Assembly (NCBI GenBank): GCA_026387385.1 | Contig: JAPLLU010000087.1 | Span: 1-40,515 of the forward strand | DNA: 40,515 nt | Source of the DNA: Candidatus Omnitrophota bacterium | GTDB taxonomy: Bacteria; Omnitrophota; Gorgyraeia; Gygaellales; Profunditerraquicolaceae | Reading direction: 5' to 3' | In this document: one piece after another, positions 1-40,515 of the stretch | How the letters are laid out: every line of letters starts with the position of its first letter | Position numbering within the stretch: the first letter of the stretch is position 1 | Position numbers and translations under genes: made by a program | The notes under the pieces: generated by a model | Seen by the model: only the letters and a program-made list of their open reading frames with translations | Database searches by the model: none | Told to the model about the DNA's origin: nothing

Positions 1-3000
1 AGAGTAACTGAAAGTCCGCTCACCCCTGCGGAAGAGTCTGAAATGCTTGCCTACTTTGCAGCACATCCTGAGTTACAGCCTGGCGATATCTTTACCTTGT
101 CAACTGGAAGAATAGTACGTATTGTTGAAGAGCCGCTTACCTCAGAAGAAGAGTCTGAAATGATTGCTTATTTTGCAGCACATCCTGAATTACGGCCTGG
201 TGATGTTTTTATATTGTCCACTGGAAGAATTGTACATGTGGTTAGAGCGGAGAACGGAGATATTATTTTACAACCCGAGACCATTGTTCTCCAACCCGAG
301 ACCATTGTTCTCCAACCCGATACCATTATATTAAAGCCCGATACTATCGAACTAAAGCCGGATACTATTATCTTACAGCCCGATACCATTATGTTAAAGC
401 CCGAAACTATCGAAATAAAGCCCGATACCATTATTGCCAGAGCCGATACTATCGTAGCCAAAGCTGACACCATCAAGGCTAACGCCGATACTAACTTTAA
501 AGAACTGCGGCCGCTAAGCATTGAGTGGACCTTAACCGGGGAAACAGAAGCTTATAAAATAGAAGAATTTGTGTATTCTCAAGTGGCGGATGAACATGGC
601 TTTATTCAGGACGCCGGCAATTATATAAAGACTACTTATATACGCCGAGTAAAAGACAATAAGTTCGTACTTCTGTCACTGGAATTTTATGATAAGGACA
701 ATCTTATTACCGAGGCCATAAAATTTGATGTGGAAGGCTCTGGCGCCATATTCAAAGTGGGCGGATACAATCCTATCTCTTACAATGATTATCTGAATCA
801 AATCAGTTCTTATAATAAGCCGATTTTCAAAGATACAGATAGACAGACCGTTAATCTGGGTGCACTCCAGGGGCATTTAGATGAAATAGGAGTGGAGTTT
901 GAAGGCAGGGATGACGGGTTCAATAAAGAAATCGATAGGCTTATAACCAGCCTTGATGTTCAGGGCGTAGAATCTTTATTAGCCTATAAGAGCATATTCT
1001 ATTCCTATGAAAACGGCGTTCAGAGAGAACATGTAAGATACATCTTATATGATGGAATCTATGCCGAGCCGCGTATTACCGTAGATGATGTTCAGGTAAA
1101 TTTACAGTATCCCGCAGGCACTTATGTGAGAGATATAAAACCGCTTGATTCAAGATATTTTGACCAAATATCTATCTACGCTGCAATCACTCCTGAAAAC
1201 AAAGTGACTGTAGACGGGACTAAAATCAAAATAGGCAATGATGTCTTTATTATTCGCGGCGTTACCTACTCTGTAGTAGCAAAAGGCCAAGAATTAAAGG
1301 ATTTAATTTTGGATGCCGGCACCATAGCAAATATAGAAGATACGCTAACGAATATGCAGCAGTCCGGTATTAACACAGTACGCACCTATTATCCGCCTAC
1401 AGCAAGCCTGCTTGATGCATTTGCCAGACATAACATCAGGGTTATAGTAGGTATTCCTTATTTCGATGACAGAGATAATCCCGGCCCGGATATCGCAACC
1501 GGAACTTATCGCGGATATATTCAGGCTTACAAGAATCATCCGGCTATCCTGATGTGGGAGTTCGGGAACGAATATAATTATAATGAACAATGGTTTGACG
1601 GAGATATAAATAACTGGTATACGAAATTGGAAGAAGCAGCTAAGACTGCTAAATCCATAGATAGTAATCACCCAGTTTCTACTGCGCACGGAGAAGTTCC
1701 TACTGAAGAAGTATTGAAAAAAGTTCCTTCCGTAGATGTCTGGGGCTTAAATATTTATCGCGGGAATAATCCGCAGGGTGCCATAGATGAATTCAGAAAG
1801 ATCTCCGATAAACCTGTATATTTGTCCGAGACAGGCGCTGATTCTTATAATACGGTGACAGGAAAAGAAGATCCAAAAGCGCAGGCTGATGCAGCAGAGG
1901 CGATTTGGAATAATATTAGCGCCAGTATCAATAAAGCCGAATGTTCCGGCGTTACCTTTATGTCCTGGCAGGATGAGTGGTGGAAAGGCGGCAGCGCTGA
2001 CGCCCAGGATTTCACAGGATGGGCATCTTCTTCTTATAATAATCAGGGCGTCTATCCGGATAGTTTTGCTAATGAGGAATATTGGGGCTGGACTACAATA
2101 GATGGTAACCTTAAAGAAGTAGCTCAGAGAATGCAGAAGGTTTGGGGAGTTAACGCAGGGGCTATTGAGTTGAACAAGCAAGAAGTATTATCTAAAGAAG
2201 ATGCAATAAAACAAGGCAGGATAACGGAAGAATATATTACCCCCATGATTCCTAAGGTTACTGCTCAAGTTGTCTTGACCTATTATAATAAACCTCAGCC
2301 TAAACCTGATTTCTTGCCTGCCCCAGGCTCAGTTACTTACCTCGTAGGAACTCGTACTGATTTTGCAGGCTTAAAAATCAGCAGAGGCTATTCCGAGGAT
2401 GTTTCGTCTTTCAAAAATCTTATAAAATTCGGAGTTTATTCTGAAAGTAATGCCTTCGGAGGATGGGTTTATCGCGAACCTGTAGATGTCTTTGGCCGCA
2501 CCCGTATTAAGGCAAATTACAATTTAAGCGAAGTATATATAGTCTTAGAGTTCCAGGAAACGAATATATATCAACCCAAAACAGCCTTAAAACTTATTAG
2601 AGACCAAGATAATCCTGGCCAATATATCGCTGTCCAGGTATTTACTTCAGAGTCAGATTTGGTTTCTTTAGATGATATATTAGCAGGTTATAACCAGAGC
2701 GATATAGATAATGTCAAGGGAGCGATTGGACAAATCAAAGCAAAAAAAGTAGAAGAGCTTGGTCCAGCGGACTTATTGTTAGTAAAAAATACAGTACAAA
2801 TTGAAGGCGAAACTTATACTCAATATGGCGTGCCGGGAGATTATCTGGGCAGGTCAATTATCATTGACCGCGGGCAAACCATATTTATTGCCAAGACATT
2901 TATAGGTATTACTGATACTACCTACGAAGGATATTTTATAGATAAGGCAACCAAGACAACGTTGTTAATGTTAAAGAATACGGATGATAAAGACAACGGC

Positions 3001-6000: not shown

Positions 6001-9000
6001 GAATTCCTTCCTGTCAGGTTACAAGACCGATGGGAATCGATTTGGGATAAATTCTGCGAAGCATTTGTAGAGAGGTTATTGAAACAGTATAAGATTTCTT
6101 CTGGTGCAAAAGATATTTTACAGAGAGTTCTTAAGAATGGGCAGATAACCGAGGACCAAAGGAAAGATTTAGGAAAAGAGGTTGACGAAGAGGGGTTGGA
6201 AAGAATCCAGCGTTTTATCGGAGCCTGGTATATGAGAATGCCTCAGGCCTTGGATTGGGATGAGCTTCCCAGTCTGACCGCGATTATTACTTGTTTTGAT
6301 GAGCAGGTAATTACTAGTTTTAAAACGTTAAATAAACCTATAAATAAAGAAAATAACAATTTCCTTATTCCTTTAAATTGGTTTATTAGTAGGTATATTC
6401 TTGATTGGATTAATTTTGCGAATCAACAAACAGAAGATATAAGAAATAAATTGCGTGCCAACATAATTATAGACGAAAAAGGAATCAGAATTAAAGACTT
6501 TAATACACCTTTATCAAATGATTTAAGTGAAGATTTAAAAGAAAAAATAGTTGAATGGGCAGGATTACATTTTATTCGTCCTGACAGAAGCATTGCCGAA
6601 GTAAATGAGATATACGAGGTTTATAAATTCTGGGCAAAGATGGCTAATAAAACAGAGGAAGACATAAAAGAAAAACTGCAGATACTTTTAATTTATGAAG
6701 GCTATAAGTTTATAAAGAACAGTATCGATGAAAGTCCGAAAGATCAAAGACTAGCGCTTATCCATGCTTTGTCAAAATATTCATTTGCTGAAGCCTATTT
6801 GGGAGATGGCCCGCTTTACCGGATCAACCCTGAATGGACAGGGAAATCTTATTTGCAGCTCAAAGAAAGCGCAAAATATTTGAAGAGCGAGCAGGATGAA
6901 AGAGATAAATTTTTTGAAGTTGTCCACACTAGTTTAGGCAATTTAGGACCGGAAGCCAAAGATAAACCCGACTCTAATTTAGACAACAGAGCTATCAAAG
7001 GTAAAACTATAGGACAGAATGCCGGTGTTGAATATGCAAGAGGGGATATTGTGCTCTTCTTTGATTCTAATGCCTCAGTAAGATTTGAAGAAGCAATAAG
7101 AATACCTGCCGTCTTAGCAGAATTTAATAAGAGCGATAAATTGGCGCAGGTTTTATTTGGCGAATATATTAATACCAAGAATTACTCCTGGATTGCTGAG
7201 GGGATGGCTTTCGGTGAAGAATCCTGGACACAGGTGATGCAGAGGATTCTGGATCTGTATGGAGCGATCGGATTCTACGGACACAGCGCCTTCATTAGAG
7301 CTGATGCATTGAAAGCAACCGGATTTTTATTGAATTTCTATGCTTCTGAAGATTTATTGGGAGCTATAAGAATGTGGGAGGAAGGCTACGATACGACACA
7401 TAGAGAATATATCTTATTCGGTAAAGGACGCGAGCGCGGTTACATTGCTTCTCATACACCATTGGGAAAATGGTCTGAAGGTTCTGCAGAATTAATCTTA
7501 GGAAGGCAGGTTGAACGTTCATTAAGAAGCGATAAGCTTCATATGGGACAAAAAATGATGCTTATCTTTGCGCTCTCATTTTATACTAAAAAGCCTTTGG
7601 TGGTAATATTAAATTATTTGTATTTGTTCGCCTTTATTTTCTTAGGCATAAGTCCTTTTATAGGATATTCCTTTGGTTTACTTTTTGGAGTAATTGGTAT
7701 ACTTATCTCTCAGGCAATCAATGCTACCGGAATCCTGTATCTTATTGAGCAAAAAGGAATAATTAGAGGCTTGGCTAAGTTTATTCATCTTTTCCCCCAG
7801 CTCTTTGCTCTGTATACTGCCGAAATAGTGGTTTATGCGCAGAGGCTATGGAAGGGCATACAAGGAGCAACGGGATTCGCAATGTCTTTAAGAGGCTTAG
7901 ATTTGGAGTTTCTGTCTTGGAGTCAAATCTGGGGAACAAGTACCCCCCGGGTAATTAAATACTTAGATAATAAAGGAACAGTATTGAAAGAAATCGCAAT
8001 TGGAAAGATTAAATTTACTAAAGATGGGAAGTCAGTGTTTAGAGGCAAGGTTATTAGCGGAAAAGATAAAGGCAAAACAGAAGAACTCAATGCAGATGAG
8101 ATTGAGGCATTAGTTAGTACAAAAGGAGCTAAGTTTGATGATGGTAAAGAAGAGAAAGTAAGCATAACCCCGCTCATAGTAACAATTTTTGCAACAGCAC
8201 TTTCTACTGCGTTTGTATTCTCTTCTTCTGTCATGGTTACTTGGGCAGGAATTATAGGCTTAGCCTTAATTCCTCTTGCGGTAAGCGCAATTTGGCGTAA
8301 AACAGTTTTTGGCCTTGGTGTGAGACTGCAGATGATTTTAGCGATACCAATGGTCGCTTTAATATTTAACGGCGTCTGGTTCTGGGGAAGTATTGCCGGA
8401 AGCCTTATATTATCTGTTTGTTGGGTTGGGTTATTCGCAACCCTGGGGATTTATATCATAGGCAGCTTCATGAATGACAAACGCATCAGCTCCTTAGGCC
8501 TCATCGCATTCTTTGGGGCATTAGTGTCCGTAACTTATTTTCAATCTGCAGTACTCTTATTGTTTATTTTCTCTATTCTCAGCTTAGCTATTCCTCTTGC
8601 CTGGTTATTAATGCCTGTATTCGGTCACCCCAGAATACGCGCTAATTTTAAATATCAAATGAAATCTTTCCTTAATTGGCTGATGAGGCGTAAGGCGGAG
8701 CCGGCTGCTCAGCCAGAAACTCCAAAAGTAACGCCGTCTGCGTCTGGTTCTCAGCTTCCGGGATCTGGATCTCAAAATCCTGGTTCGCAGAGTTCAGCAA
8801 CTGAGATACCATCTGATATCCCACCCACTACACCGTTAAATTTACCCGATTTGTCTAAAGGGAGTTTCAGCGGTAGATTTGAAGAAGCAATTACTAAAGT
8901 TGATGAAGAGCATCCAAATGTAAGGTCTCCTCCGCAGGAGCCCAGCGAAAAAGAGCAAAGCCTCATATCCGGTAAAACTATAGTTATAGTTACTCACAAT

Positions 9001-12000
9001 TTCTTAGCTTCCGGTGGAGTTGAAACATACCTGCCTTCCTTGACTTCCCGCTTAGCCAAAAATAATGCTAACCTTAATTTAATTTTAACCTACCCAGAAC
9101 ATCAACAGTTAGCCACTCAGAGCGAACTACGCCTTGAAAATGGAAGTAAAATTGTCTTCATTCCTTCGGGTTCAACATCTCATGATTTAGAGAATACATT
9201 ACAGAATATTTTCAAGCAAAACAGCGTAGATCTAATAGTCTGCCACGTACCATTTGCTATGGAGAGTACCATTGCCATTAATTTTGCCAATATTCATAAT
9301 ATTCCGATTGTGCTGTATTGGCATGGTGGTCAGATATTGACTCGCGAGGGGCAAGCATATGGAATGGAAGCCCGATTTGCAAAAGCAACTAAGATTGCGG
9401 TTGTAAGCAGGGCGGGCAAAAAACAGATAGAAGATTTCGGTTTATCTGCAGAAGTAGTTGGTCCCATGGTCGAGGTGGCTAACTTCAATCCTATTTTAGC
9501 TAATGGCGAAGAGATAAGGAAAGATTACAATTTAGCAAATAAAGCGGTTATTCTTGCTCCTAATAGAATTCATCAATATAAGGGCTCAAAAGATTTATTG
9601 GAAGCGGCGTCTCAATTGAAGAAAAAAGGTATCAATAATTTTGTAGTGGTTATGATTGGAGATGTACACGAGCAGGCATATCTTAATGAAATTCAGCAGT
9701 ATATCGATAATAATGATTTGAGAGGTAATGTGATAATGAAACCAGTTGCCATTCCTCAAGCAGAGCTTAAAAATTGGTATGCGGCTTGCGATATCGTTGT
9801 ATTACCTACCTACGCCGAAGGCCTGCCACTAGTTCTATTGGAAGCGCAATTAATGGAACGGGTCGCTGTCGCTTATAGGATTGACGGCACACAAGAAGCA
9901 ATGAAGGAAAATGAAACCGGGGTTCTGGTTGACTTGATTGGTAACGACCATAAAATTGCTGATTTGGTCAAGGCTTTACAACAATTAATTCAAGATAAAT
10001 CTCAAAGAGAAACTATGGGTAAAGCAGGCAGGCAGTTCATTTTAGATAACTTTAATCCCGATAAATTAATTGAGCGGCATGTAAGATTATATGCTGAAGC
10101 CATGGCTGAATTTCGTCCGACAGCCGCCACTATTACGATGCTACCTTTGGAAGCCATACCAGTTGCGTACTCAGGGTCTTTAGCTCCAGAATATTCAAAT
10201 AAAGAACAATTGCAAGTAACAGGACAGACCAGAGAAGAGCGCAATAGAGCTAATCTTCTTTCCATTGGCGCAAATCCCAAAACCAAGACCTTTGGTGACC
10301 TTGTCAAATACGGCAACCCTGACTTAATTGAGAAGAAGGTAAATCTTATAAAACAACTTAAGGCAGAGGGAAAGATTAACGGAAGAAATGGCGGCATTGC
10401 CGTAAGTATACTTCGTTATAGCGCAGAAACTATTAAGGCGCGTGCGGAAAATTTGGGAGGATATGGTTATTCTCTTAATGCTGGGAATATAAAATTCAAT
10501 AAATACCAGGAGATAGTCCAGAAACACCAGGAAGTAGCGACCTCATCCATTCCCATAGTTGCTATTAAAGCTAAATTAGCTAACCTGGTGTTTACAGAAA
10601 AGGATATCATAGGTGAAGGTATAGAGTTTGTAGTTTATACAAAAGAAGGTTTGGATTTTGTAGTAAAGCCGCCCAAATTCGGAGTTCTTTATAAAAACTG
10701 TAGCGAAAAAGGTTATTCTCTTGCCGGGGAATTATTACCAGATCTTATAGCTCCTTTTGTTTTAGGAGTGCCGGTTGTTATTATTGATTCCCAGGGAAAG
10801 AAGCATAATGTCCAGGCATTAATCCAAAAGAAAATCACGCCTCTTCCGGAAAGAATAAATAAACTTGTCCAATTAAACGATAAAGAAGCCATAATAGGTT
10901 TACTGAAGAAAAAAGCCGAGCTAGATATAAAAGCCTTAGAGAGAGGTTTATGGATGATGGATAACAGTGTATTTAAAAACTATGGCATAGATGAAAAAGA
11001 AAATGTAGTTTTCATGGATTTAGGCCATATCGCTCGCAAGACTTATAGCGCAGAGTTAATAGTAGAGCTTTGTAAAATTAACTCTTCATCGAGGGATGAA
11101 CTTATATCTTATGGGGTTACAGAAGAGATTATAAATGAGTTTACGATATTTTTCAAAGATAAGCTGGAATGCTGGATAAACGAACTTGAAAAACAAGGAG
11201 CGGGAATAGTCTTTACAAAACTCACAACACCATTAGAAGCTAAAGATGAAATGGAAGTCCGTTTCTTAAAAGGTGGGTATAAACAGGATGGTTACGGCGT
11301 GCCGAATGGCGCTGCAGTAGATGGGTCGCATGCTTTAATAGGAACTCAAGGTTATTATACAGAAGTAGGAAAGAAGATATTCCTGGATACGGTCAACAAA
11401 ATGAAGGGATTCTTCCAGGGGCGTGCGAAGAGAATCGGGAAGCCGATTAAGCTTGTTATCAAGACCGGCATCGGCGGCCAGCATACCCCATTCGCGGGTA
11501 TTGCCAGCGGATTTGAAGTAATAGATTCTCAGACCGGAAAGATTGTCGGTGAGTATGAATTAGGCAAAGATTTTGAGGGGGCAATATCTCAGATTCTTAA
11601 AGAGCTCAACGCTGACTGGACTCAAGTGGCACTTATTCCCAGTTCAAAGTCAGGCTCAACCGATGAAACAATGATAGTCTTTGTTGAGATATTCTATGCG
11701 CTCTTAAAACATATAGCTATGGAGAAAGGTATTAACGGAGAAAAATTCGCAAACAAGATTCTGGATACTTTGCACGAGGTTAATTTTGTTGAAGGCAAAG
11801 AGCGGAAAGGCCAGGATTTATTCAAGGGATTCAGTCTTAAACTGATAAGTGAAAAAACAGGTGTAAGCTACGACCAGGTAAAGGAAATATTCGGGATAGT
11901 ATTAGGCAATATGTTCTTTGAGACCACGGACAGGACTTCGGATAGCCGACTTTCCGCGTTTATCAGAAATTCAGGACTGGATAGAGAACTGGGAGGAGAT

Positions 12001-30000: not shown

Positions 30001-33000
30001 GAATTGGATATAGACAAAGATAGAGTGAATATTGGAAAAGTTGAGGGAAAACTTGATGGCGGTAAGGAGGAATTTAAGCAGCTGGCAGATATTATTGCTG
30101 AGAGGTTAACGGCCGACATTAAAATTGATAATGACAACTACATACGGCTAGAAGAATTAGTGGGCGGAGAGCTGACAGCGGAATCAATTGATTTTTCTCC
30201 TGCTAAGGAATGGCTTATCTACCCAACATATGATGATAAAGTAATCATATATGAAACTGTAGGTAAGAGAGTTTTAACGGAACAGGAGCTGGATCAGGTA
30301 ATTAAGATGTTAACAGGCATGAACCTAAAGACAACCATTGTTCTCGTAGAAAAGGACAAGAAAACAATAGTTATAGATTTAGATTTTGCCACAATCGAAC
30401 GTTATGCTAAAGCCTTAAATCTCTTAGCCGCACAGCTTGATGAACGCTTGGTAGAAGCCATTGACAACATACACGATATTCCTTATCGGGATGGCAGTAT
30501 CATCAAAATGAAATTAATGAAACTGCCATTTAGGAATTTTAAATTTCCTGATGAGCTAATTAATTTCTTGGTTAGATTTTTTAAAGTAAGGACAGCTACA
30601 TCGCCGTTATCCAAAAAATCCCTTGATTGGCTGATAGATCAATACATGCAAAAAGAAAATTATGGCCTAGATGTGCAGTCAGTATTAAAAGAGGGCAAGA
30701 AAGAATGTCAGAAGAAGTTAGCTGCTATAGAGGAATCAAAAGCAATAGCTGCTGATCCGCATTTAATGCCGGAACAAAAGGTCGGACAATTAGGTGTGGG
30801 TATTATCTATAGTGAAGAAGAAACAAACAAAGAGCTGGATATTATAGATTATCTTTTCGAGATGTTCCTCCCAGAGAAAACATTGCTTACGTTAAAGGCC
30901 TTAAGTAAATTGCAAGAAGAAAGAAATATCGTTGAATCGGTCAGAGGAGATCAATATTACTTAGATTTTAATTGCGGTATCAAAGCCATTAACGAGATAT
31001 GCGAGCATAAACCACTATTGAGTGAAGTGGAGATAGTAGATGGAAAAGGCACAAGATTAGATATTGAGGAACCCGATGAGAAAGTATTAGAAAAATTACT
31101 CGAGCAACATAAAAAAGAGATAATGTATGACTTATTAGAACAAAGTTATCCTGTTAAATTCTTAATTTCTCTTAAGAATTTCAATACAGGTGAGAAATTC
31201 TATGGTGCATATTATGAAGGGCATATTGATGAGGAAGGCAATATCTGGATTGAAGAAGTTAATTTCTTGATGTTAGGAAGAGGTCTGTTTAAAGCCATAA
31301 GTGCACTCATCTCTAAATACCTTAAACAGCTCCCACATAATATTAAGGTTAAGCTGTACATTTGGGAATTGAATTCTCTCATTGAGCTGGCAGAGAGCTG
31401 TATTAATTTTACAGATACCTGTGAGGAAAAAATTAAAGAAAGGTTGTCAAATCAAGAATGCAAGGAAGCGCTGTATAATTTACGTAGCAATATACCTTTA
31501 TGTAAAGAAATCAGAGACAGTCAGCTTGCATTCGGCTTTGGCTCAGAGCGCAGAGAGTGCATTTTAACCATGTTAGATAACCTGTATGAACTTCTGTTGG
31601 CTTGCGAGAAATCGCCATGTGACCCTGATAAAACATTATGGGGGCATATCTACATAGACTATATGAATTTATTCAATGTAGAAATAAAAGCAGTTAAGGA
31701 TGAACATGGGCAGAAGTCATTGCTATTAGTTGGTGATACAAATCCGGGCAGGTCTCTTGAGGGATTAGAATCCATAGGGCCAGAACATATAAATCCGAAG
31801 CCAGAAGAAGCGTTTGACGGAGGCAAGAAAGAGAAGGCCAAGCAAGTAAATAAATCCCAGAAAAACGATGGCGGAAATATTAAGCCTGCTAATATTGAGG
31901 TCGATGATTTAATAGATGAACTGAAAAACAAAGGAAAAATTAAGATTCGCGCCAATGACGGAGTAGAGTTTGAGTTTAGATTAAGAATCTTATGGGATGG
32001 TATGTACACTATAGAAGTTTACAAGGGAAGGGATAATATAGGTCGCGTTGACTTTGAGCTGGGAGGCATAGGTTATAGTAGTTTTGAACGCGCTCTCTCG
32101 GATAATGAACCTATAAAAGTTACAGAGAAAAATTATAAAGGTATAGGCAGGGCTTTAGTTTCGTTAGCACTTGGCCTATCAAGAGAAGAAGGTTTAAAAT
32201 GCTTTATTGCGTGGATGTCAGTAGCAGATTCATTTTGGTTAGGTTTAGGTTTTGAAAGAATAGGTGATTCATCTAATTTTAAATTCGACCTGATAAACAA
32301 AATCATACCTCCTATAGAGATAGTCGCAGAGAATACCATCTATCCCATTCCTGTCCTCCGTGGCCGGTGGGAAGAGGCAACTGTTTTCTCCCCGCGAGGC
32401 TTAAACTCTAACCAGGTCTTTTCTTTTGTCTCCGATGAGAAAACGCTTACAGACGGTGGAAGGCAATATTCTCAAGAAACGCCTCAGGAGAAATATGCAA
32501 GAATTACACATAATTTGGATAAATTAAAAGATGATGGAATTTTAATATTAAAGTTAAGAAGAACCGTTAAGCCATATAGGCTAGATATCTACTCTGCTGT
32601 ATATCTGCCGATTAATATAGCTATTTATTATAAAAATAAATCTCTCTTGGATGTTGCAAAGATAGTAATAGAAGTAGAATCTGATGGATACAATCGCCCC
32701 GTTTACTTTAGAGAAGTACCTGCCGAGAATATTTCAATACTTAATGTTGCTTTAAGCAGAGAAGTAAAGTTTGATAGTTTAGCATTACAAAATATTTCTT
32801 ATGTTGAGAAAAATAGTAGATTTGATATTGCGTTCAGTAAAGATTTCTTGCAGTCCTTCGAAGCTCTTGGAATACCAAAATATTATGCATTTAAATATGG
32901 CTCTTGCAGATTTGTTGCTCAGCCTGAAGCAGAACAAAAATTATTACTTGATGGTGGTCAAAAAGATAAAACTGCAGTTATTGCTTTAGGCGGTAATGCC

Positions 33001-36000
33001 TTCTTTAAGGAGATAGGTGGAGAGCCATATAATAAACAGTTAGAGAATCTCTCCCAGATGCTTGAGCCTGTAGTAGGGCTCATCAAGAATGATTACCAGG
33101 TAGTGATAACCCATGGTAACGGACCTCAGGTGGGAGATAGAATGCTGGAGAACGAGCGGTTTGTTGAGGAGAAAGGTAATGTTAAACGCCTGCCTCTTGA
33201 TGCACTTGTGGCTGAGACTCAGGGTGCAATGGGGTATATGATAGAGATGGCCTTACAGAGGTTGCTTATAAAGGAAGGCCTTCAGCGAACTACCGCTACT
33301 GTGCTTACTCAAGTAGTCGTGGATAAAAATGACCCAGCCTTTAATAATCCGACAAAGCCAGTTGGCCCCTATTATTCCCAAGGGCAGGCGGAAAAATTAA
33401 TAAAAGAAAGAGCCTGGAAAATGGTAGAAGTCCTGAACCGAGGCTGGAGAAGATTAGTCCCATCGCCAGCTCCAAAAGAAATCGCCAGCCTTAGCGTGAT
33501 TGAGAGGTTATTAAGAGACAATTGCGTTGTTATTGCCTGTGGTGGCGGCGGCATACCGGTTTATAAAACAGAAGGGAAGTCTCAAGAGGGAGTAGAAGCA
33601 GTAATTGATAAGGATCGGGCCTCCAGTTTACTTGCAGTTAAACTCAACGCCGATAAATTTATCATTTTAACTGAGGTAGCCGGCGTTTACTTAAATTTCG
33701 GTAAAGAAAATCAGCAAGCACTTAATGAAATAAGTATCGCCCAAGCAGAAAAATATTTGTCTGAAGGCCATTTCCCAACAGGCAGCATGGGACCTAAAAT
33801 TGAATCTGCCATTGCCTTTGTCAAAGCTACCGGCAATAAAGCTATTATTGCAAACGAGAAGAGTATTCAAGACGGATCATATACTTCAATTGTAGAACAA
33901 TTCAGTCAAACTAGACTCATGGCGGATGGAGGCAATAGCCAGCAGACAAAACTTTCTTCTGTGATTGAAGAACTCAAGTCCAGCTCTAAGTTCGTGCGTC
34001 AAACGGCATTATCCTTTGTTAAAGAATATATTCTTAAAGACAGACCGCAAATCCACCGATATCCCGAAGAGAAATATTATGAATTGATTGAAATGCTCAA
34101 TAGTCTGATTGAAGACGAACGGATCAATACCAACAATATTCTCTTAGCTAATCAAGTGAGTGAGTTCTATGATTGGTTGATAGATATATTCGTCCAAAAA
34201 GAAGATTTCATTACGGTCATCGCAGATAACAAGTCAACTTTTGATAAGGAAAAATCCAGATTAATTGAGAGCCATATTTCAGGCTTCAATCTTTCCTTCC
34301 AACAGGGATTAATAAAAGAGGCGTTTAATTCCAAGATGGTTATCATCTCTAATGAAAAAGGAAAATATTCTTCAGAAAGCATAGCTAAATTTGTAAGAAA
34401 AGCTCCTAAGGACATTTTGATAGTTATCCATCAAGGGGCCAGTTTTGACGACAACTATATTCCGTTTATTAAAGGTACGCAGAAAATTATTATCCTGAGC
34501 ACATTTCCGCAAGGGCTTAAGCTGGCAGGAGAGCCTTTAGCTTATTCTATTTCCAGGAAAGATATTAGGGAACTTCTGCTTAAAGTTAAGAACCCTTTCA
34601 ATATAAATATTATTGATCTTTTAGTTGCGTTACACGTTATTGCAGAGTGCGTCACAGAGCCTATTAAGGAGGCAAAAGCCAAATTTATAGTTGAGGAGGA
34701 TGCTTATCAGATAGAATTACGCTCTATGATAAGAGCGGCTATCCAGAATCCCGGGCTTCAACCCTATATCCCTGGCAAGGGACCAAAAGAAATTTGGACT
34801 GAATTAAATGAGCTGTATCCTAGGAAATACAAACCTGAAGATATCGGCAAACTATCCTCTAATGAAAATCCAGAGATTCTTCCCTTAAAGGCAAGAAAGG
34901 CTTTAGTAGGGTTATTGCTGTCTGCGATGCAAGGAAAACCTTTTGATTACCAGAGAGAATTACAAAAAACCAAGGAGATTATCTCCCGGCAGTTAGGTAT
35001 TGAAGACAGACAGATTTTCTTAGGCAACGGCGCATCCGAGGCAGTGGGAAGAATTATCTCTGCCTTAGCTAAGGAAGGAGACACTATAGTTTTCCCTGAG
35101 AAGACATTTACGCTATATCCTTTAGTAGCAATGGCTCAAGGGTTGAATATGATTATGGTCAAAAACAAGATGAATCTTGAAGAGGGATATATTGATACTG
35201 ATTTTGAAGGCCTTTTGAAAGCAGTTAGCAATAATAAACCGCGATTATTAATATTAGTCAATCCCCGCAATCCCCTCGGGTTGGTAATCACTAGAAAAGA
35301 ACTGAATAGCTTTATTTCCCAAGTTAAAGCAGCCTCACCGAGTACTATAATTATCATTGATGAGGCGTATTATGAATTTGCAAAATATCAAGCAGGGCAA
35401 GAAGGCTGGGAATACCCAAAGACCATACGAGACTATATTAGAAAGAATGATAAAAACATTATTGTAATCCGGAGCTTCTCAAAAATATTAGGCCTTGCAG
35501 GTATGCGCGCGGGTTATGCCATAGCGCACGCCGATATTATTAAGAAACTCGAGAGAATAAAACGATCCTACAATGTTAACGCCTGGGCCTTGCCCCTGAT
35601 TAGAGAAGGCATAAGACAAAAGGCCTGGATTAAAGAGCAGTGTAAAAGCAACTATGAGAATAGGCAGTATCTTTTAGAGAACCTTAAAAATCATCCTCAG
35701 CTCGATTACATTAGAAAAAAGAGAACCTCAGGTAATTTCTTATGTCTATGGGTAAAATCCGGCTATGATGTTAAGGAAGTTATGAATAAAATTAAAAAAG
35801 AGGGCCTGATTATCCGTCCTGTTGGGGAGCGGTTTATTCGGGTAAGCCTGGGTGGGACCTGGCAGCAACTGGGCAGATTAGTTGCTTCTGAGTCGGATTT
35901 AATTCTGGTGGTAACCCATGACAAGCCAAAACGCAAAACCCATAAAAATATATCTTTACTTTTGGACAGTCATGATGTGTTCATCAACAAATTTATTATT

Positions 36001-39000
36001 ACTAATTGTTATTATCCAGGAGAAGAAATAGTATTTGGTGTAGAAAAGAAAGATGTCAAACCTACAGAATTCCAGTCATATTGTTTACTTAATAGAAGCG
36101 GAATAGTTCTGGTTGGTGAATACTTAGAATGCTGTATATTCACCGCCTTTAAGACTTGTGTGACACAAAAATTAAAGCATCACTTGAAAGCAAAGGTTAA
36201 TATTATTAGGGATGCCACTACGATGCGCCTGGAGGAGTATAAGGATAAAGACAAAACCGTCCCCGTTGTTAAGCGCTTACCGGTTGCGGCAGAATATCCC
36301 TACCGCACGGAAAATGAATTTAACACCTTCCTGAGAGAATTTCACATAGAGCATCCCGATATCAGAAAAGAACCCATAAGCTTTGAAGTTCTTATTGATG
36401 GCTATCCATTTTTTAGAGAAGGTAAAGGAGAGCCCGAGATCAGGCTGCACTGGATTTCAAGTACCGATAAATTCTTAAGGCAGCGCAGAAATAAAATTGG
36501 TTCAGCGGAAGCGGATAATATTCAATTTGATGGAGGCAGTAGCGCTGGATTATTAACAGAAGACGGCCGATTAAAATCCGATGTCTTAGAATATGTTTAC
36601 AATATCGATAAGCTTATTAACTTCGTCCACGATAAATCCGCTTTTAGTGAAGATCAGTTGCGTATGGAAATACGGAAGTATTGTAAACAGGCAATGAGCG
36701 AGAGATTTGTTAGGGCCTATAGAAAGGGTAAGATTATAGTTATGGTACCTGATCTGTCAGACCTTGACTTCATGGGGCTGGGCGATTACTTGGCATACAG
36801 TGGATTAATGAAAAAAGATGCTGAATATGTCCAGAATCATGAAGAGGAGATTGAAGAAATCCTCAAGTCTGGTACGCGAATATTGACTTTTAGAGCAAGA
36901 GATAAACAGGAAATACAGGCATCGCAATCGTTAAGAGATACAGAGATTATACCCCACAGACAGGCCTATGCAGGGTTATTTGCTGCTACTTTTGGCAAAG
37001 GCCTCGATCGTAACGCAACCTTAAATTTAGGTTATGAAGGATTTGATAAAGAGGCTTTGGGCTTGAAAGATATGCAGATGAAATTATACGATAATGCCAA
37101 CATGAGGTTAAAACAATTTATAAACTATATAGCAAGTAAGGATTTGATTAAGATTGAAGGCATGACTGAAGATGGCCAGCCTATTAGATTATATATATCC
37201 AGATCAGATTCTAAATCAGAAATATTTGCTTATCTCTTCAGGTTACAATTTAAGGTTTCCCAGGATTTCACTAAAGACAAAAAACCAATTATCCTTTTCT
37301 TTGCTCCAGAGTTGACGAACAATGCCTCAAGATACCTTTTCTTAGACCAGGGCGTTGGTTTCTGCTACGGGAAGGATTATTACGGAGAGATTACCGATAG
37401 TATTAAAATTTTAGCTCAACATAGGAACAAAGAAGCAGACATAGGTCAAGTGAGTTCCCATATAGAAGATTACTATAGCTTAGCGATTAACAGAGATTAC
37501 TTTGTTGATGACGATGGTTTGTTCCATCTGGAAGGAAAACAGTGGCCACTTATCGGAGCATTAGATTTTGACTTCCATCCGTATCTGGGAGATAAAGTTC
37601 TGACGCCGCAAGATAAGCTACATTATTCGCTAAATAAGGTTTTGGGTAATTTGGAACACTTCGCATCCAGGTGTGACGATTATACCCAGAAAACAATGAC
37701 TGAACTCAAAAGTATTGTTAAAAAATACTCGACACAAGTAATGAGCGAGGAATTTATTAGGGTAGCAAGAGAGGGTAGATACGTTGTGCTCTACAAAGAT
37801 CAACTTAGTTTTGATCGGGTTAAGGATTATATAAGGCTAGAAAAATTTGTATTAATGAAGGCTCGCGATATACAGAACAATGAAGATAGGGTATTAAAGA
37901 TATTATCTGAGGATAAGATAATTATATTAGATTGTAAGGCTAAGTTTTCGCCTGAAAATTTTGTACCGTTTACACGCCAAAAGGCCTATGCAGGAATCAT
38001 GGTTCCTTCAAACAGGAAATCTCGAGACAAAGAGCATACCATACATTTACCTTCCAATTTTACATTTGAAGATTATCTTAATCATCCTACTAAAAAGATG
38101 CTCTATTCTGAGGCGGACACAAGAATTAAAGAATTCACCAAATACATCCTCACCAAGGACCTTGTTAAGATTGAAGGTAGCCTGGGCGGGATTTTCCCGA
38201 TAAGACTTTATATCTCTAAGGCTGACCCCAGAGCTGAGAGATATGCCTATTTCTTCCGTTCGCAGTTTAGGGCACCGCTTGAAAAATTACCTAAAGGCAT
38301 GATGATGATGCAGCCATTAACGTTAGTTTTTGCACCCGAATACAAGACTAACGAGGCTTCCAAATATATGTTTTTGGAACAGGGACTGGGTTTGTGCTGG
38401 GGCATGGATTATGGCGGTGAGATCAAGAAAGGTTTCTTGACTATGGGTAATTACGAAGCGCGTAAGCTTGATTGGTTAGGTTTACACGCTGGCTTAAGGA
38501 TGGTTACCTTAAGACATAAAGTCACAGGAGAGATTCTAAGGTTAACACAGGTATTCTTTGGCTTATCCGGCTCGGGTAAGACTACCTACTCAACGAGTGA
38601 ATTAGGATTAAATGAGGCATTAAGAAAACAGTATTCTGATTGGGAAATCGTTGTTGACGAAACCGGACTGGTCAATGACGACATGCTCTATTTAGTAACG
38701 AAAGATACAGAATTCAATGGCAAACTATATAAGAAAGGCCAGATTGTCGGAACAGAAACCAATGTTTTTGCTATTATCTCTAAGCTTAAACAGAAACAGC
38801 AGCCTGAGGTTTGGGATGCAACCTTTAATAATTACTTCTGCTATCTGGAGAATGTGGACTACACAATTGGCTCAGATGGTTTATATACTGTCAATGTGAT
38901 GAATGATATTCCTTCCGGTAACATGCGCGTAACAGCGGTAAGAGACGCTATAAACACAAAAGCCCAAAAATCATTACCCTTGGAGACTCCATCATTTGAG

Positions 39001-40515
39001 GAAAAAGCTAGAATTCAATTTATATTTTTATCGCCAATGATTAACAATTACATACAAGACCCATGGATGGATGGATTACCTATTCAAAAGCTTACTCCTG
39101 GACAGGCAGCCCTTGCTTTGATTGCCGGCATATCTGTGAAAACTCCTGCCTCAACCCACATTGTAGAAAACTGGGGTAAGTCAGCTATTTCACGCTTCTT
39201 CAATCCATTTACACATGGAGACCCAGTACTATACGTCTCAGATTTTTACAACTTCCTACAGGAAAACCCTGATAGAGTCAGTGCCTGGATAGTCAACACC
39301 CGCGCAGGGCAAAAAATGAATGAAGATGGTTCTTTCGATTCAGCCCACAGAATTCATATCCCCCAGAGCGTGCGAAACGTCTTACACGCCACATTGGAAG
39401 GTTTAGGTTTAGAAAAATTAAACTATAGGCAACACCCAGTGATGAGAACGCTCATTCCCGAAATCAAAGATAATGATTTAAGCGGGCTTAAAATAGGCGA
39501 ATTCAGCCAAGAAGAGAGATGGCGTTCTCCCGATGATTTCCGAAAAAGAATTATTGTCTACGCCAAGAAGAATTTCCCTGGATTGCCAATAGAGGTACTT
39601 AATGCCTTTGGAAAGGAAGAACAAGAGGAAAAGAATGATGGTGGAAGAGTAGGTTACGGGTCTCAGGCCGCAGGCTACAGGTATCAAGAAGATGTTCGAT
39701 ACGATGGCGGTATCCCAATTGAAAAACTCATTGCCCACAGAATAGAAAGTAAAGAGCAGTTAGAAGACGCCGTCAAAAACGGTATAGAGAGAGTAGAAAT
39801 TGATGTGCAGCTAACCAAGGATAATGAGTTAGTAGCTTTCTGGGGAAAATTAAAAGACGGGTTTGTTTATGATTATACATCGCAAGAATTAGAAAAAATG
39901 TTAGAAAAAAATTTACTCAATTTAGAAAGGGCTTTCAAAGTTGGCAAGGAAGAAAATCTTAAGTTCAATTTGGATATTAAAGATTGGGCCTCTGAAAAAT
40001 ATATTGAATATGAAGAAAAAGTGCTGGATAAAATTAAAGAATTGATAGAAAAATATAATCTTCAAAATCAAGTATCAGCGGATTCATTCAATTGGGGTTA
40101 TCTGGGAAGATTAAAGCAGCTAGCCTCTTACGTAAACACATACTTGGGCACTGAAAAGGAATTCAAGGATTTAGAAGTGATAATTAAAGAAGCAAAGAGG
40201 ATGAATGCTTCTGGTGTATGGATTTATTCTGAAAATTTGTCCCTCGAGCTCACAAAGAGATTACATCGAGAAAATTTAAAAATAATCACTAATTTTGAAG
40301 GCCTAAGGGAGGAATTTAAAGCAGAAGTAGATTTAATAGTCAAAAATTTTGTTAACGAGAGAGAATCCGCTCCCGCCAGGCTCTTACCTGACGGCGGCAA
40401 TATAATCCTACCTCCAAGCACCACTATCCCCAGCCTCAGCGGTTACAATAAAGCCAACTTTAAAGGTAAAATCATCTTTATAAGAGTAGATTTCAATGTC
40501 TCAGATGAGACCGGC
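1..40515 (+). CDS. Internal fragment of one giant multidomain ORF (>=13,505 aa), open at both ends
   Basis: Frame 1 translates continuously from RVTESPLTPAEESEMLAYFA to ...KANFKGKIIFIRVDFNVSDETG. No in-frame stop was seen while reading, and family motifs remain in the same frame from end to end. Window length is divisible by 3. No listed + ORF is in frame 1. Confidence 0.95.
10..243 (+). repeat. Two tandem 117-bp (39-aa) repeats; array probably continues upstream
   Basis: ESPLTPAEESEMLAYFAAHPELQPGDIFTLSTGRIVRIV followed by EEPLTSEEESEMIAYFAAHPELRPGDVFILSTGRIVHVV. The first residues (RVTESP) align with RIVEEP at the internal junction. Confidence 0.92.
271..501 (+). repeat. About 10-11 tandem 21-bp (7-aa) repeats, consensus [QK]P[DE]TI[VIE][LI], decaying at the 3' end
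   Basis: caacccgagaccattgttctc repeated in register: QPETIVL QPETIVL QPDTIIL KPDTIEL KPDTIIL QPDTIML KPETIEI KPDTIIA RADTIVA KADTIKA NADTNFK. Confidence 0.95.
1201..2160 (+). other. Domain: clan GH-A glycoside hydrolase (TIM barrel, GH2/GH17/GH72-like)
   Basis: FIIRGVTYS...SGINTVRTYYPPTASLLDAFARHNIRVIVGIPY...YKNHPAILMWEFGNEYNYN (acid/base NE at about 1567-1572)...KPVYLSETGADSYN (candidate nucleophile E at about 1828)...MSWQDEWWKG. Confidence 0.8.
2260..4380 (+). other. Long beta-rich region of unknown function, aromatic-rich and probably extracytoplasmic
   Basis: TQYGVPGDYLGRSIIIDRGQTIFIAKTF..., YYRVGYYNPNTGEVWYRWHYPVHIWGGYVYEERGYF, YQVARILNKLPQTIGFEVIQYNP. Lies between the GH domain and the first TM. 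Confidence 0.5.
4396..4461 (+). other. Transmembrane helix
   Basis: WLLVVGMTVATVGFFAGLILLGKRAEKKARDQELKEKAKG: hydrophobic span followed by a strongly basic segment. Confidence 0.85.
5430..8670 (+). other. Domain: multi-TM GT48-like 1,3-beta-glucan (callose/FKS) synthase
   Basis: ERIQRFIGAWYMRMPQALDWDELPSLTAIITCFDEQVITS; FLIPLNWFISRYILDWINF; KPDSNLDNRAIKGKTIGQNAGVEYARGDIVLFFDSNASVRFEEAIRIPAVLAEF; ASEDLLGAIRMWEEGYDTTHREYILFGKGRERG...LILGRQVERSLRSDKLHMGQKMMLIFALSFYTKKP. These correspond to remembered GT48 motifs (FxxxMPxAP, ...NQDNYLEEAFKMRNLLEEF, LSEDIFAG...EGxxTHHEYIQxGKGRDVG...LSRDxYRLG...SFYFTT). TM clusters near 5480-5640, 5690-5910, 7550-7770 and 8160-8640. Confidence 0.8.
8695..8880 (+). 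other. Low-complexity Pro/Ser/Gly/Gln linker
   Basis: AEPAAQPETPKVTPSASGSQLPGSGSQNPGSQSSATEIPSDIPPTTPLNLPDLSKGSFSG. Confidence 0.85.
8970..10110 (+). other. Domain: GT-B glycosyltransferase, GT4 / group 1 family
   Basis: KTIVIVTHNFLASGGVETYLPSLTSRLAKN...LAPNRIHQYKGSKDLLEAASQLKKKG...GNVIMKPVAIPQAELKNWYAACDIVVLPTYAEGLPLVLLEAQLMERVAVAYRIDGTQEAMKENETGVLVD. Confidence 0.93.
10580..11220 (+). other. Domain: protein-kinase-like fold (putative)
   Basis: IIGEGIEFVVYTKEGLDFVVKPPKF (N-lobe Lys), LIAPFVLG, then KALERGLWMMDNSVFKNYGIDEKENVVFMDLGHIAR (catalytic/metal-loop-like). Confidence 0.5.
11260..13160 (+). other. Domain: phosphoglucose isomerase
   Basis: IKTGIGGQHTPFAGI (GIGG), ALIPSSKSGSTDETM (SIS SKSGSTxET motif), DNVGGRWTGDLHMM (PGI signature-like), KSCEQNFNESIWQGG, HNVSSHLVRDYF. 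Confidence 0.9.
13500..15720 (+). other. Domain: phosphoglucomutase/phosphomannomutase superfamily
   Basis: KAKFSTAGIRAFIDI (FGTSGIRG-like), CGATHYTSSHSANYLYGRKNL (catalytic SSH loop), ECDPDSDRF (metal loop, 14560-14577), ELDFRPSGTDPLKSKIYIHAE (phosphate loop, near 15580). Confidence 0.92.
16060..16830 (+). other. Domain: UPF0489 / arginase-deacetylase-like (putative)
   Basis: PVLISENHGWAEVFWGLMWARKKVRGKGILVNFDLHSDIDF...RPVFISIDADYYTARY...LITFSFST: E-x-H, D-x-H-x-D and D-x-D metal-ligand pattern. Confidence 0.55.
16279..16341 (+). repeat. 21-bp tandem repeat, 2 near-identical copies plus 1 degenerate copy
   Basis: tcaggaatcgtcaatagacat / tcaggaatcgtcaatggacat / caagtaaccgtcaatggatat; encodes SGIVNRH SGIVNGH QVTVNGY inside the putative UPF0489 domain. 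Confidence 0.9.
16990..18480 (+). other. Domain: ribose-phosphate pyrophosphokinase (PRPP synthetase), with an extra N-terminal half
   Basis: ETSRFPDGEWYLRI...; NVVLVHSTENNFDIAELWLMLIALRQANVACISLIETYSGYSRQDKKFKEGEGVSAATM; LLVLGPDDGAFNYVQEAAEVL; WVFIIDDETSTGGTLLAATYVL. Confidence 0.88.
18532..18730 (+). other. Short hydrophobic/TM module, copy 1
   Basis: NKFYSFFPFTFLSVGSIPVISDIINWISNNPVWAGLIGSGVVGLGIGLFFAVW. Confidence 0.75.
18745..19410 (+). repeat. HEAT / PBS-lyase-like repeats (about 31-33 aa units)
   Basis: SDARSSAAEALKKLGVTKDQLIEGYIKALSSRNSDARSCAAEALKKLGVTKDQLVESYIKAL...[43 protein letters not shown]...; consecutive copies are strongly similar at DNA level. Confidence 0.95.
19537..20410 (+). 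other. Second TM + HEAT-like module (copy 2)
   Basis: TKFYSFLPLAFLSAGSIPVISDIILTLQNIIQP...; TM helices to about 20000; HEAT-like KKAAEAILQISGVPREEAINGYLKALSNPYSSVRIYAIRALVKIG; IYGPYGELSGTCIKENPEY echoes DYGPYGERCGSHTEYNSEY of copy 1. Confidence 0.8.
20460..21300 (+). other. Domain: CCA-adding / poly(A) polymerase head-type nucleotidyltransferase
   Basis: ILVIGGAVRSIFFDENVYDFDISIGADLTDGERK (GGxVRD...DxD-like), followed by PIGSLEDLLQGRISILGNGLNFGINDILRLLRLKYQYGLEID. Confidence 0.8.
22080..23830 (+). other. Domain: L-fucokinase / fucose-1-phosphate guanylyltransferase-like nucleotidyltransferase
   Basis: NNLIVGLHGGGQSSRNPKYTQIGKFNGYLP (HSGGxSxRxP-like), INTYGDALITFNP, GTAAIDEKGLIKQFVEKPL, MNTAFAVLGPAILV, KTHMNRSLEDWFNELRILEPRIDIDKIWAPGTAHLLSTARIFPGLS. 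Confidence 0.75.
24060..24540 (+). other. Small HExxE...AH domain, copy 2 (copy 1 at about 21560-21850); function unknown
   Basis: NIFYIHPWYLELSANPALKPLIDDLWRHEYSEFGNKGLSQEAAHAAACQASYDYF; compare NSIYILVPSEEEFLNLPVPELAKILVHESVELATKLESSKKGIDWDSLVEDAHKVALEFV. Confidence 0.5.
26130..26960 (+). repeat. About 94-95-aa (282-285 bp) helical tandem repeats
   Basis: Motif recurs: YEQKQKETHNSIESFIGEYIQ..., YERNQKERHRSIEEFIVEYVQ..., FEEKQKDKGRSIEQFIK...; preceded by LQAHGLWLLEKLYKG / LYALGYSTLCDLLLG / LRYLGYTSLYKLIVG / LRYLGRYDLIHFL. Confidence 0.88.
26998..27600 (+). other. Domain: second protein-kinase-like domain (putative)
   Basis: IWRKFDEGSEAIIYVG...LRVAKRVHWGKTKAGYASFLKHLILRVLDDYF...YIFVEGVEAFSLD...WKKIDFGSQST (VAxK-like and DFG-like). 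Confidence 0.5.
27742..27867 (+). repeat. Long direct repeat, copy A (partner at 40390-40515)
   Basis: gacggcggcaatataatcctgcctccaagcaccactatccccagcctcagcgg...gatgagaccggc; I count a single mismatch over 126 nt against 40390-40515. Confidence 0.95.
27757..29115 (+). other. pgk-like: Domain: phosphoglycerate kinase (complete)
   Basis: IIFIRVDFNVSDETGKIKSVKRILEAMPTLVYLMEAGATIVLASHNGRPSGK; NVLENTRFFKGEEKND; FDAFGTAERVHSSTGGVA; GLIIGGGPKVSEK; FYNGNVGVEELLEF; VIGGGDTTKSAEKNKVDTKVTHCSTGGGASAAFLKG. Confidence 0.95.
29143..29223 (+). repeat. Degenerate third copy of the DGGNIILPPSTT linker / PGK N-terminus
   Basis: gacggcggcaatataattctacctctaagcaccactaccctcatactcagcgcttacaataaagacaacgaaggtaaagag = DGGNIILPLSTTTLILSAYNKDNEGKE vs DGGNIILPPSTTIPSLSGYNKANFKGK. 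Confidence 0.88.
29290..29920 (+). other. Domain: Nudix hydrolase (isopentenyl-diphosphate isomerase-like subgroup)
   Basis: DGTWHRSVFVFVIDKEGKILRQQRSFKKELYPGAYDISVGAHICCFDADSRSAAARELLEELF: Nudix-box-like with AARELLEEL. Confidence 0.85.
31880..32325 (+). other. Domain: GNAT-type acetyltransferase-like
   Basis: YTIEVYKGRDNIGRVDFEL...NYKGIGRALVSLALGLSREEGLKCFIAWMSVADSFWLGLGFERIG (QxxGxG/A-like loop and terminal LGFxxIG). Confidence 0.7.
32962..33915 (+). other. arcC-like: Domain: carbamate kinase
   Basis: [163 protein letters not shown]. Confidence 0.96.
34750..35900 (+). other. Domain: histidinol-phosphate aminotransferase-like (PLP fold type I)
   Basis: PYIPGKGPKEIWTELNELYPRKYKPEDIGKLSSNENPEILP; FLGNGASEAVGRIISALAKEGDTIVFPEKTFTLYP; LVNPRNPLGLVITRKEL; IIIIDEAYYEF; VIRSFSKILGLAGMRAGYAIA (PLP Lys codon at 35482). 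Confidence 0.93.
36540..37620 (+). other. Extra, partial ATP-PEP carboxykinase N-terminal domain
   Basis: QAMSERFVRAYRKGKIIVMV...HRQAYAGLFAATFGKG...IRLYISRSDSKSEIFAYLFRLQFKV...PIILFFAPELTNNASRYLFLDQGVGFCYGKDYYGEI parallels the following copy; no P-loop before copy 2 begins. Confidence 0.8.
37640..39600 (+). other. pckA-like: Domain: phosphoenolpyruvate carboxykinase (ATP)
   Basis: FVPFTRQKAYAGIMVPSNRKSRDKEH; IRLYISKADPRAERYAYFFRSQFRAP; FFGLSGSGKTTYSTSE (kinase-1 motif, 38557-38601); PIQKLTPGQAALALIAGISVKTPAST; SAWIVNTRAG. Confidence 0.9.
39712..40370 (+). other. Domain: glycerophosphodiester phosphodiesterase-like (probably degenerate active site)
   Basis: IPIEKLIAHRIESKEQLEDAVKNGIERVEIDVQLTKDNELVAFWG...KFNLDIKDW...YNLQNQVSADSFNWGYLGRLKQL; GDPD spacing, but the usual HRG and HD motifs are altered. 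Confidence 0.65.
40390..40515 (+). other. Start of a second phosphoglycerate kinase copy, truncated by the window end
   Basis: DGGNIILPPSTTIPSLSGYNKANFKGKIIFIRVDFNVSDETG; near-identical DNA to 27742-27867. Confidence 0.93.

Follow-up and report, generated by a model that had tools for sequence, protein, structure and literature searches.

The window, by which we mean the whole 40,515-bp stretch of DNA analysed here, is a complete contig (C45; G000:C45) of an Omnitrophota genome of 1.57 Mb that is 98% complete and divided into 149 contigs. From end to end (1–40515, + strand) it is an internal slice of one giant gene, and all features described below lie on the + strand. Frame +1 contains no stop among its 13,505 codons, as originally predicted, while the other five frames contain 503 to 1308 stops each and no open run longer than 175 codons. 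Given the base composition of the window, the probability of such an open frame arising by chance is about 10^-420; the longest ordinary frame among twenty sampled contigs of the same genome has 996 codons. A codon-usage model trained on 150 open reading frames (193.6 kb) of this genome scored frame +1 highest in all 135 consecutive 300-nt windows, and the synonymous codon usage of the joined giant gene (see below) correlated with that of the genome at r = 0.976. Because codon usage favours frame +1 throughout, this is the native, continuous coding frame, with no visible frameshift.

The frame continues upstream through two further contigs. Contig C110 (7,278 bp), read as its reverse complement, ends in exactly the 113 bases with which the window begins (1–113). 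One frame of 2,425 codons is open throughout C110, and the other end of C110 shares an exact 141-base overlap with the end of contig C75. The final k-mer size of a common assembler is 141. No third contig matching either overlap end was found among the contigs of the host genome, and both joins, C75–C110 and C110–C45, keep the frame without a stop. The second join falls within an array of 38-residue repeats, where the number of repeat units may be wrong; the frame is unaffected by this. The joined frame starts at nt 13,459 of C75 and runs for 23,239 residues to the end of the window (69.7 kb open). The window corresponds to residues 9,735 to 23,239, and the extension thus added 9,734 residues to what had been taken, rightly, for an internal slice of a giant protein. 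At the 3′ side, the last 126 bases (40390–40515) equal 27742–27867 except for one base (125/126); in them, a second phosphoglycerate kinase (PGK) module begins with its linker and first strand. Searches of the genome bin with the last 3 kb and by PGK family found no 3′ continuation. Extending the frame into its flanks, as had been proposed, therefore reached the real start but not the stop: the 3′ side ends at this repeat and the C-terminus lies outside the assembled sequence, so that the openness of the frame at both ends, also noted originally, is due to the contig ends. The giant protein has at least 23,239 residues (about 2.6 MDa). As a side observation, this repeated PGK start at the very end of the contig suggests that a module beyond the window was duplicated internally, and recently.

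The giant gene starts 38 nt downstream of the end of tadC on the same strand of C75. Further upstream on that strand lie tadB, TadE/TadG-like genes, and six short pilin-like genes with a Flp signature; gene names were assigned from sequence reading and from homologous runs in relatives. The six tandem Flp-type genes (L014:5291-7628, C75) form an unusually large set of paralogues for one Tad locus. Where about 5.9 kb or more of sequence was available upstream in a relative, tadB and tadC preceded the giant gene in the same orientation in 21 of 29 cases from the same GTDB family and in 14 of 17 from other families; in some relatives, tad genes were lacking within 6 kb. In several relatives, including L082 (G084), a gap of 0.4–1.7 kb without any frame of at least 80 codons separates tadC from the giant gene, and this gap may hold a long leader or an RNA. 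From gene order, we infer that the Tad genes and the giant gene may be co-expressed; synteny by itself leaves a joint function unproven. In the parts of Seymour et al. drawn on here, Tad and giant ORFs are handled as separate traits (PMC10066038).

The N-terminus of the giant protein (its head) consists of a signal-peptide-like stretch ending in PEHAAWA, followed at residues 213–344 by a Peptidase C39 domain (PF03412, 33 bits, cut-off 22). A structural model of the head of a relative, L148 (pLDDT mostly >90 in the peptidase part), matched 6mpz, 3zua, PCAT1, and ComA in Foldseek (E 5.8e-6), the nearest folds being those of GG-motif proteases with their leader peptide. The catalytic Cys and His are invariant in the head alignment. 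A Gln near, and before, the Cys is present only in the head type of our giant and is lacking in other head types, and the catalytic Asp position is read from the alignment as Glu in our clade. The head thus shares fold, Cys, and His with the C39 double-glycine peptidases of ABC transporters (PCAT1, ComA; 6mpz, 4ry2, 3k8u), as well as, in our clade, the Gln before the Cys. It differs from them in carrying Glu as its acidic residue and in heading a giant chain behind a signal peptide rather than being fused to an ABC transporter.

Relatives of the first 1,400 residues were found in 55 of the 108 genomes of the GTDB family, and a search with the head alignment found the head in 142 of 285 Omnitrophota genomes, the weaker matches covering the C39 part only. 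Lengths of the head-bearing frames include 57,756, 42,913, 39,957, 39,687, 35,884, and 35,009 codons. Contig ends truncate many of them, but those of G068 (35,009) and G069 (30,185) end inside contigs. The suggestion that the giant belongs to a type known from Omnitrophota agrees with the public records: of 45 that bear the same head, 42 are titled Omnitrophota or Omnitrophica, two are titled ‘bacterium’, and one comes from a Dehalococcoidia bin. The last (L148, CAIWXV010000015.1) has a giant head 55% identical to ours and is probably an Omnitrophota contig placed in the wrong bin. Two further frames, L087 (G038:C15) and L075 (G063:C18), carry the same head in only about 410 codons (409 in G038); they may represent a stand-alone form of the head, the source from which the giants grew. 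We define the giant family by a signal peptide and C39 head and by a position behind tadBC, and the gene described here has both.

Behind the head, the giants share a SecA-like region, a GH2-like glycosidase, and an FKS1/BcsA-related glycosyltransferase, in combinations and orders that varied in pairwise comparison. In our protein, the SecA-like region contains SecA_DEAD, PP_bind, and P-loop domains. The window itself opens, after the overlap with C110, with a 21-nt (7-residue) tandem repeat of PDTIxLK type (271–491, Tandem Repeats Finder) and a glycosidase TIM-barrel (1345–1884; Pfam Glyco_hydro_2_C) whose nearest solved structure is GH158 (E 2.8e-11). A beta-glucan-synthase-like glycosyltransferase follows (7000–7626; PF02364, 53.7 bits), for which the PDB search returned FKS1, a remote match at 26 bits, and BcsA; this module is 50% identical to that of G177. 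Hydropathy identified seven hydrophobic, probably transmembrane, segments after it (7597–8607) and about 38–39 such segments in the joined protein, which has multiple predicted transmembrane helices. With some 38 segments, the membrane side on which the tail lies is uncertain. A segment of about 140 residues within C110 is present in two copies (giant residues 7429–7568 and 8023–8173) whose last 70 residues are 94% identical (GPPVVAYRKNGQVIWNLTEKEIETILTQNHYDKET...), which hints that modules have been shuffled between linkers.

Beyond the synthase, the window contains both halves of a glycosyltransferase family 4 domain (9013–10035, Pfam), a weak phosphoglucomutase/phosphomannomutase-like segment under the curated cut-off (14242–14397), a PRPP-synthetase-like domain pair (17467–18273), HEAT repeats present in part as 93- and 99-nt tandem copies (18747–20328), and sugar nucleotidylyltransferase or fucose-pyrophosphorylase-like domains, the first part of which is under the cut-off (22366–23745). 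The enzymes of the tail come next, in the order PGK (27802–29070), NUDIX (29458–29847), carbamate kinase (32968–33873), an aminotransferase of class I/II nearest to histidinol-phosphate aminotransferase (HisC) with an SFSK lysine motif (34849–35886), a divergent ATP-type phosphoenolpyruvate carboxykinase (PEPCK)-like domain with the P-loop GLSGSGKTT (38350–39462), and glycerophosphodiester phosphodiesterase (39754–40284). The domain scans thus confirm that several enzyme domains follow one another in the same frame. The tail is lineage-specific, unlike the phylum-wide head and the recurrent core; that of G099, for example, carries different enzymes (ICMT, SPase-II-like, M28, and GNAT). The PGK, carbamate kinase, HisC-type aminotransferase, and ATP-PEPCK domains belong to the same sequence families as the stand-alone enzymes and have their active-site motifs, but they are joined in one chain and are either divergent from the stand-alone copies of the family or have no such copy there.

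Several of these domains retain active-site motifs. The host genome encodes a normal stand-alone PGK (537 bits) in addition to the embedded one (283 bits). The embedded domain keeps 20 of 21 motif positions (substrate and nucleotide residues) vs 80 of the 169 remaining positions at which stand-alone PGKs are invariant (p = 1.1e-5), a pattern that, at the level of sequence, speaks for selection for catalysis. The carbamate kinase domain scores 356.3 bits against TIGR00746, slightly under the cut-off of 358.25, and its motifs align to those of its nearest solved relative, 1e19 (300 residues, E 2.2e-81). Full-length carbamate kinase was found in three of the 108 family genomes, each time in a large frame, and no stand-alone carbamate kinase was found among the 108. 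The PEPCK-like domain scores 82.6–85 bits, over the cut-off, in a match spanning model positions 155–457 only; within the family, PEPCK_ATP exceeded the cut-off in our giant alone, and no stand-alone PEPCK gene was found. Because the family has no stand-alone copies of either enzyme, an outside source is more probable for both than duplication of a gene that the family already had.

Besides the host genome, 23 genomes of the GTDB family encode a PGK embedded in a large frame. By a simple heuristic, a signal-peptide-like stretch opens all 17 embedded-PGK frames whose start could be read, compared with none of 30 stand-alone PGKs; L126, which has no clear start, and one cut frame were left out. 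Signal-like starts were also scored in 37 of 84 other frames of at least 300 codons; export may thus be common among the large proteins of this group in any case. Most embedded-PGK proteins have no hydrophobic segment between the signal and the PGK. A tree of the embedded PGKs, drawn for the question of a single origin, has long branches. Two of these PGKs, in L125 (G066:C3) and L132 (G069:C4), are circularly permuted, with the C-terminal part first, and hold 20–21 of the 21 motif residues. Many of the embedded-PGK proteins (L125–L147) carry a D-x-L-R-P-like motif just past the signal, and a second type of start, MWRK..ELNLAGHL..RFRPVHIRFFSYD, recurs in five of them.

The linkers of the tail are marked by the tripeptide Asp-Gly-Gly (DGG), found there 15 times from 24661 to 40398. 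Across six giants or giant fragments with our head type, DGG was seen 51 times (15 expected), with EGG (4 vs 20 expected) and NGG (5 vs 19 expected) depleted. The other proteins of the host genome showed no DGG enrichment (5 vs 11 expected). As a mark of all Omnitrophota giants, DGG was rejected, as it is not enriched in G068, G069, G095, G105, G050, G075, G048, G175, G179, G177, or G225. In our tail, none of the 15 DGG lies inside a domain, compared with 15 of the 20 other xGG (exact count, p ~5e-6). The distance from DGG to domain edges was borderline in our tail and not significant in G099. An insertion site at the DNA level was ruled out by the 11 codon combinations observed at 18 sites; since the codons vary, it is the protein motif that is retained.

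We propose, with somewhat better than even confidence, that the gene encodes a giant envelope protein with a phylum-wide head, a recurrent core that includes a membrane-embedded synthase, and a lineage-specific tail of captured enzymes with retained active-site motifs (PGK, carbamate kinase, aminotransferase, PEPCK-like, and glycerophosphodiester phosphodiesterase), acting in export, glycan metabolism, and contact as follows. The head would direct the chain into the envelope. The core would anchor it there and would synthesize or remodel beta-glucan that forms a coat or a tether. In contact with other cells, the giant protein would act jointly with the Tad pilus, and the tail enzymes may act on host-derived metabolites or on glycan precursors. 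Counting against the placement in the envelope, kinases that use ATP would find no substrate outside the cytoplasm unless it were host-derived. In another reading, a cytoplasmic mega-enzyme, the membrane segments of the core would keep the tail in the cytoplasm, where a single scaffold would combine sugar activation and glycan synthesis with the regeneration of the required ATP by PGK, carbamate kinase, and PEPCK. The presence in one tail of three ADP-phosphorylating enzymes with retained motifs, on the same chain as sugar-nucleotide and glycosyltransferase domains, would suit such an arrangement. Yet the head carries a signal peptide, the PGKs embedded in relatives occur in proteins of exported type (all 17 readable starts, most without a membrane segment before the PGK), and the tails of other giants hold unrelated enzymes, and on balance we find this arrangement doubtful.

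An unlikely though still credible variant, suggested by sequence comparison, would have the chain process itself: the N-terminal C39 peptidase, or a partner, would cleave after the DGG of the linkers and free the modules of the tail, each then an enzyme exported or delivered on its own. In its fullest form, which we likewise put forward only tentatively, an exported polyprotein of more than 23,000 residues would have its DGG linkers cut by its built-in C39 protease, releasing active metabolic enzymes at the site of contact made by the Tad pilus. The head fold nearest to GG-motif proteases with their leader peptide, the invariant Cys and His, the Gln confined to our head type, and the DGG pattern (enriched with EGG and NGG depleted only in giants of that head type, variable in codons, and absent from the interior of tail domains) all fit such cleavage. 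Against it, the pattern was noticed post hoc in one clade and amounts to a single evolutionary contrast, Glu occupies the catalytic Asp position in that clade, no leader-like pattern precedes DGG, and the distance to domain edges was not significant in G099. Should the signal peptide be cleaved, the head would also have to share its side of the membrane with the linkers. To our knowledge, C39 peptidases cleave N-terminal leaders, not internal linkers. The tail might also have no function at present, having grown by neutral accretion in which loss of stop codons and recombination fused passing genes to a giant gene that tolerated them. Tails that differ wholly among lineages and the duplication of linkers and modules could be explained in this manner, which we nevertheless hold to be improbable, for the active-site residues of PGK are retained far above the rest of the domain, the aminotransferase and carbamate kinase motifs are intact, and frames of tens of thousands of codons are open throughout the phylum. 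That the gene is an artefact of assembly or annotation, or several genes with internal starts, is the least credible explanation. The genome is fragmented, its contigs end at repeats, and the joins rest on overlap only, but the single 40,515-bp contig has a uniform, stop-free frame, the overlaps are exact, unique, and in frame, and comparable frames occur in genomes of one or few contigs; the stop-free frame, codon usage, and unique exact overlaps rule out both the artefact and the multi-gene reading. Megasynthases of the NRPS/PKS type are, like our giant, very long bacterial chains built of many enzyme domains, but the modules of our giant are not iterated, and this candidate was rejected as Pfam scans found no condensation, adenylation, ketosynthase, AT, or carrier domains.

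These results bear on giants that have so far been puzzling: little seemed common to them, and few of their domains were known. They gain a common identity in the form of an alignable head, a preferred place behind Tad genes, a recurrent glycan-synthase core, and a tail that recruits enzymes whose active sites are retained, and they become linked to an attachment machine that predatory bacteria use. What was ‘function unknown’ turns into testable questions, namely whether the head is a protease, whether DGG is cut, and whether the core makes beta-glucan, and a further question arises as to why glycolytic and carbamate kinases would reside within an envelope protein. Other giant genes of the phylum, reportedly encoding up to 85,804 aa, are the subject of a preprint by West-Roberts et al., in which they are said to be read in terms of cell-wall degradation and predation; our giant has in common with them the phylum, the size class, membrane segments, and carbohydrate-active domains. 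In the literature searched, we found neither Omnitrophota and C39 together nor a description of a double-glycine giant polyprotein. Tad linkage, a shared head, an intact enzyme tail, and inter-domain DGG were not found there either, the West-Roberts et al. preprint being outside the scope of that search. Within that literature, what looks new is the family of heads, the rule of Tad linkage, the retention of active sites in the enzyme tail, and the DGG pattern.

Giant Omnitrophota proteins as such were already known (PMC10066038; PMC11573180; preprint cited in PMC12057145), and our gene shares with Omnitrophota giant ORFs a frame of >20 kb, the phylum, and multiple predicted transmembrane helices. 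In Seymour et al. 2023 (PMC10066038), Ca. Velamenicoccus archaeovorus LiM is given a giant ORF of 39,678 aa and a Tad locus at CP019384 12382-29832, and proteomics, for which this species is the single reported case, found giant-ORF peptides to be up 3-fold in V. archaeovorus cells attached to larger cells. One of our genomes, G175, consists of a single contig (1,974,201 bp) on which a frame of 39,687 codons begins at 29,823, directly behind Tad genes; from the giant length and the Tad coordinates, we infer that it is LiM or a near twin. Its giant has the same head as ours in the same place behind Tad genes, a SecA-like module, and glycosyltransferase 2, GH2-like glycosidase, sugar nucleotidylyltransferase-like, and starch-synthase-like domains. 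It differs from ours in a partly rearranged core order, the lack of DGG enrichment, and different active-site surroundings, and also in its tail, which carries lysine-decarboxylase-like, HD, response regulator, GFO/IDH, M48, and APH domains.
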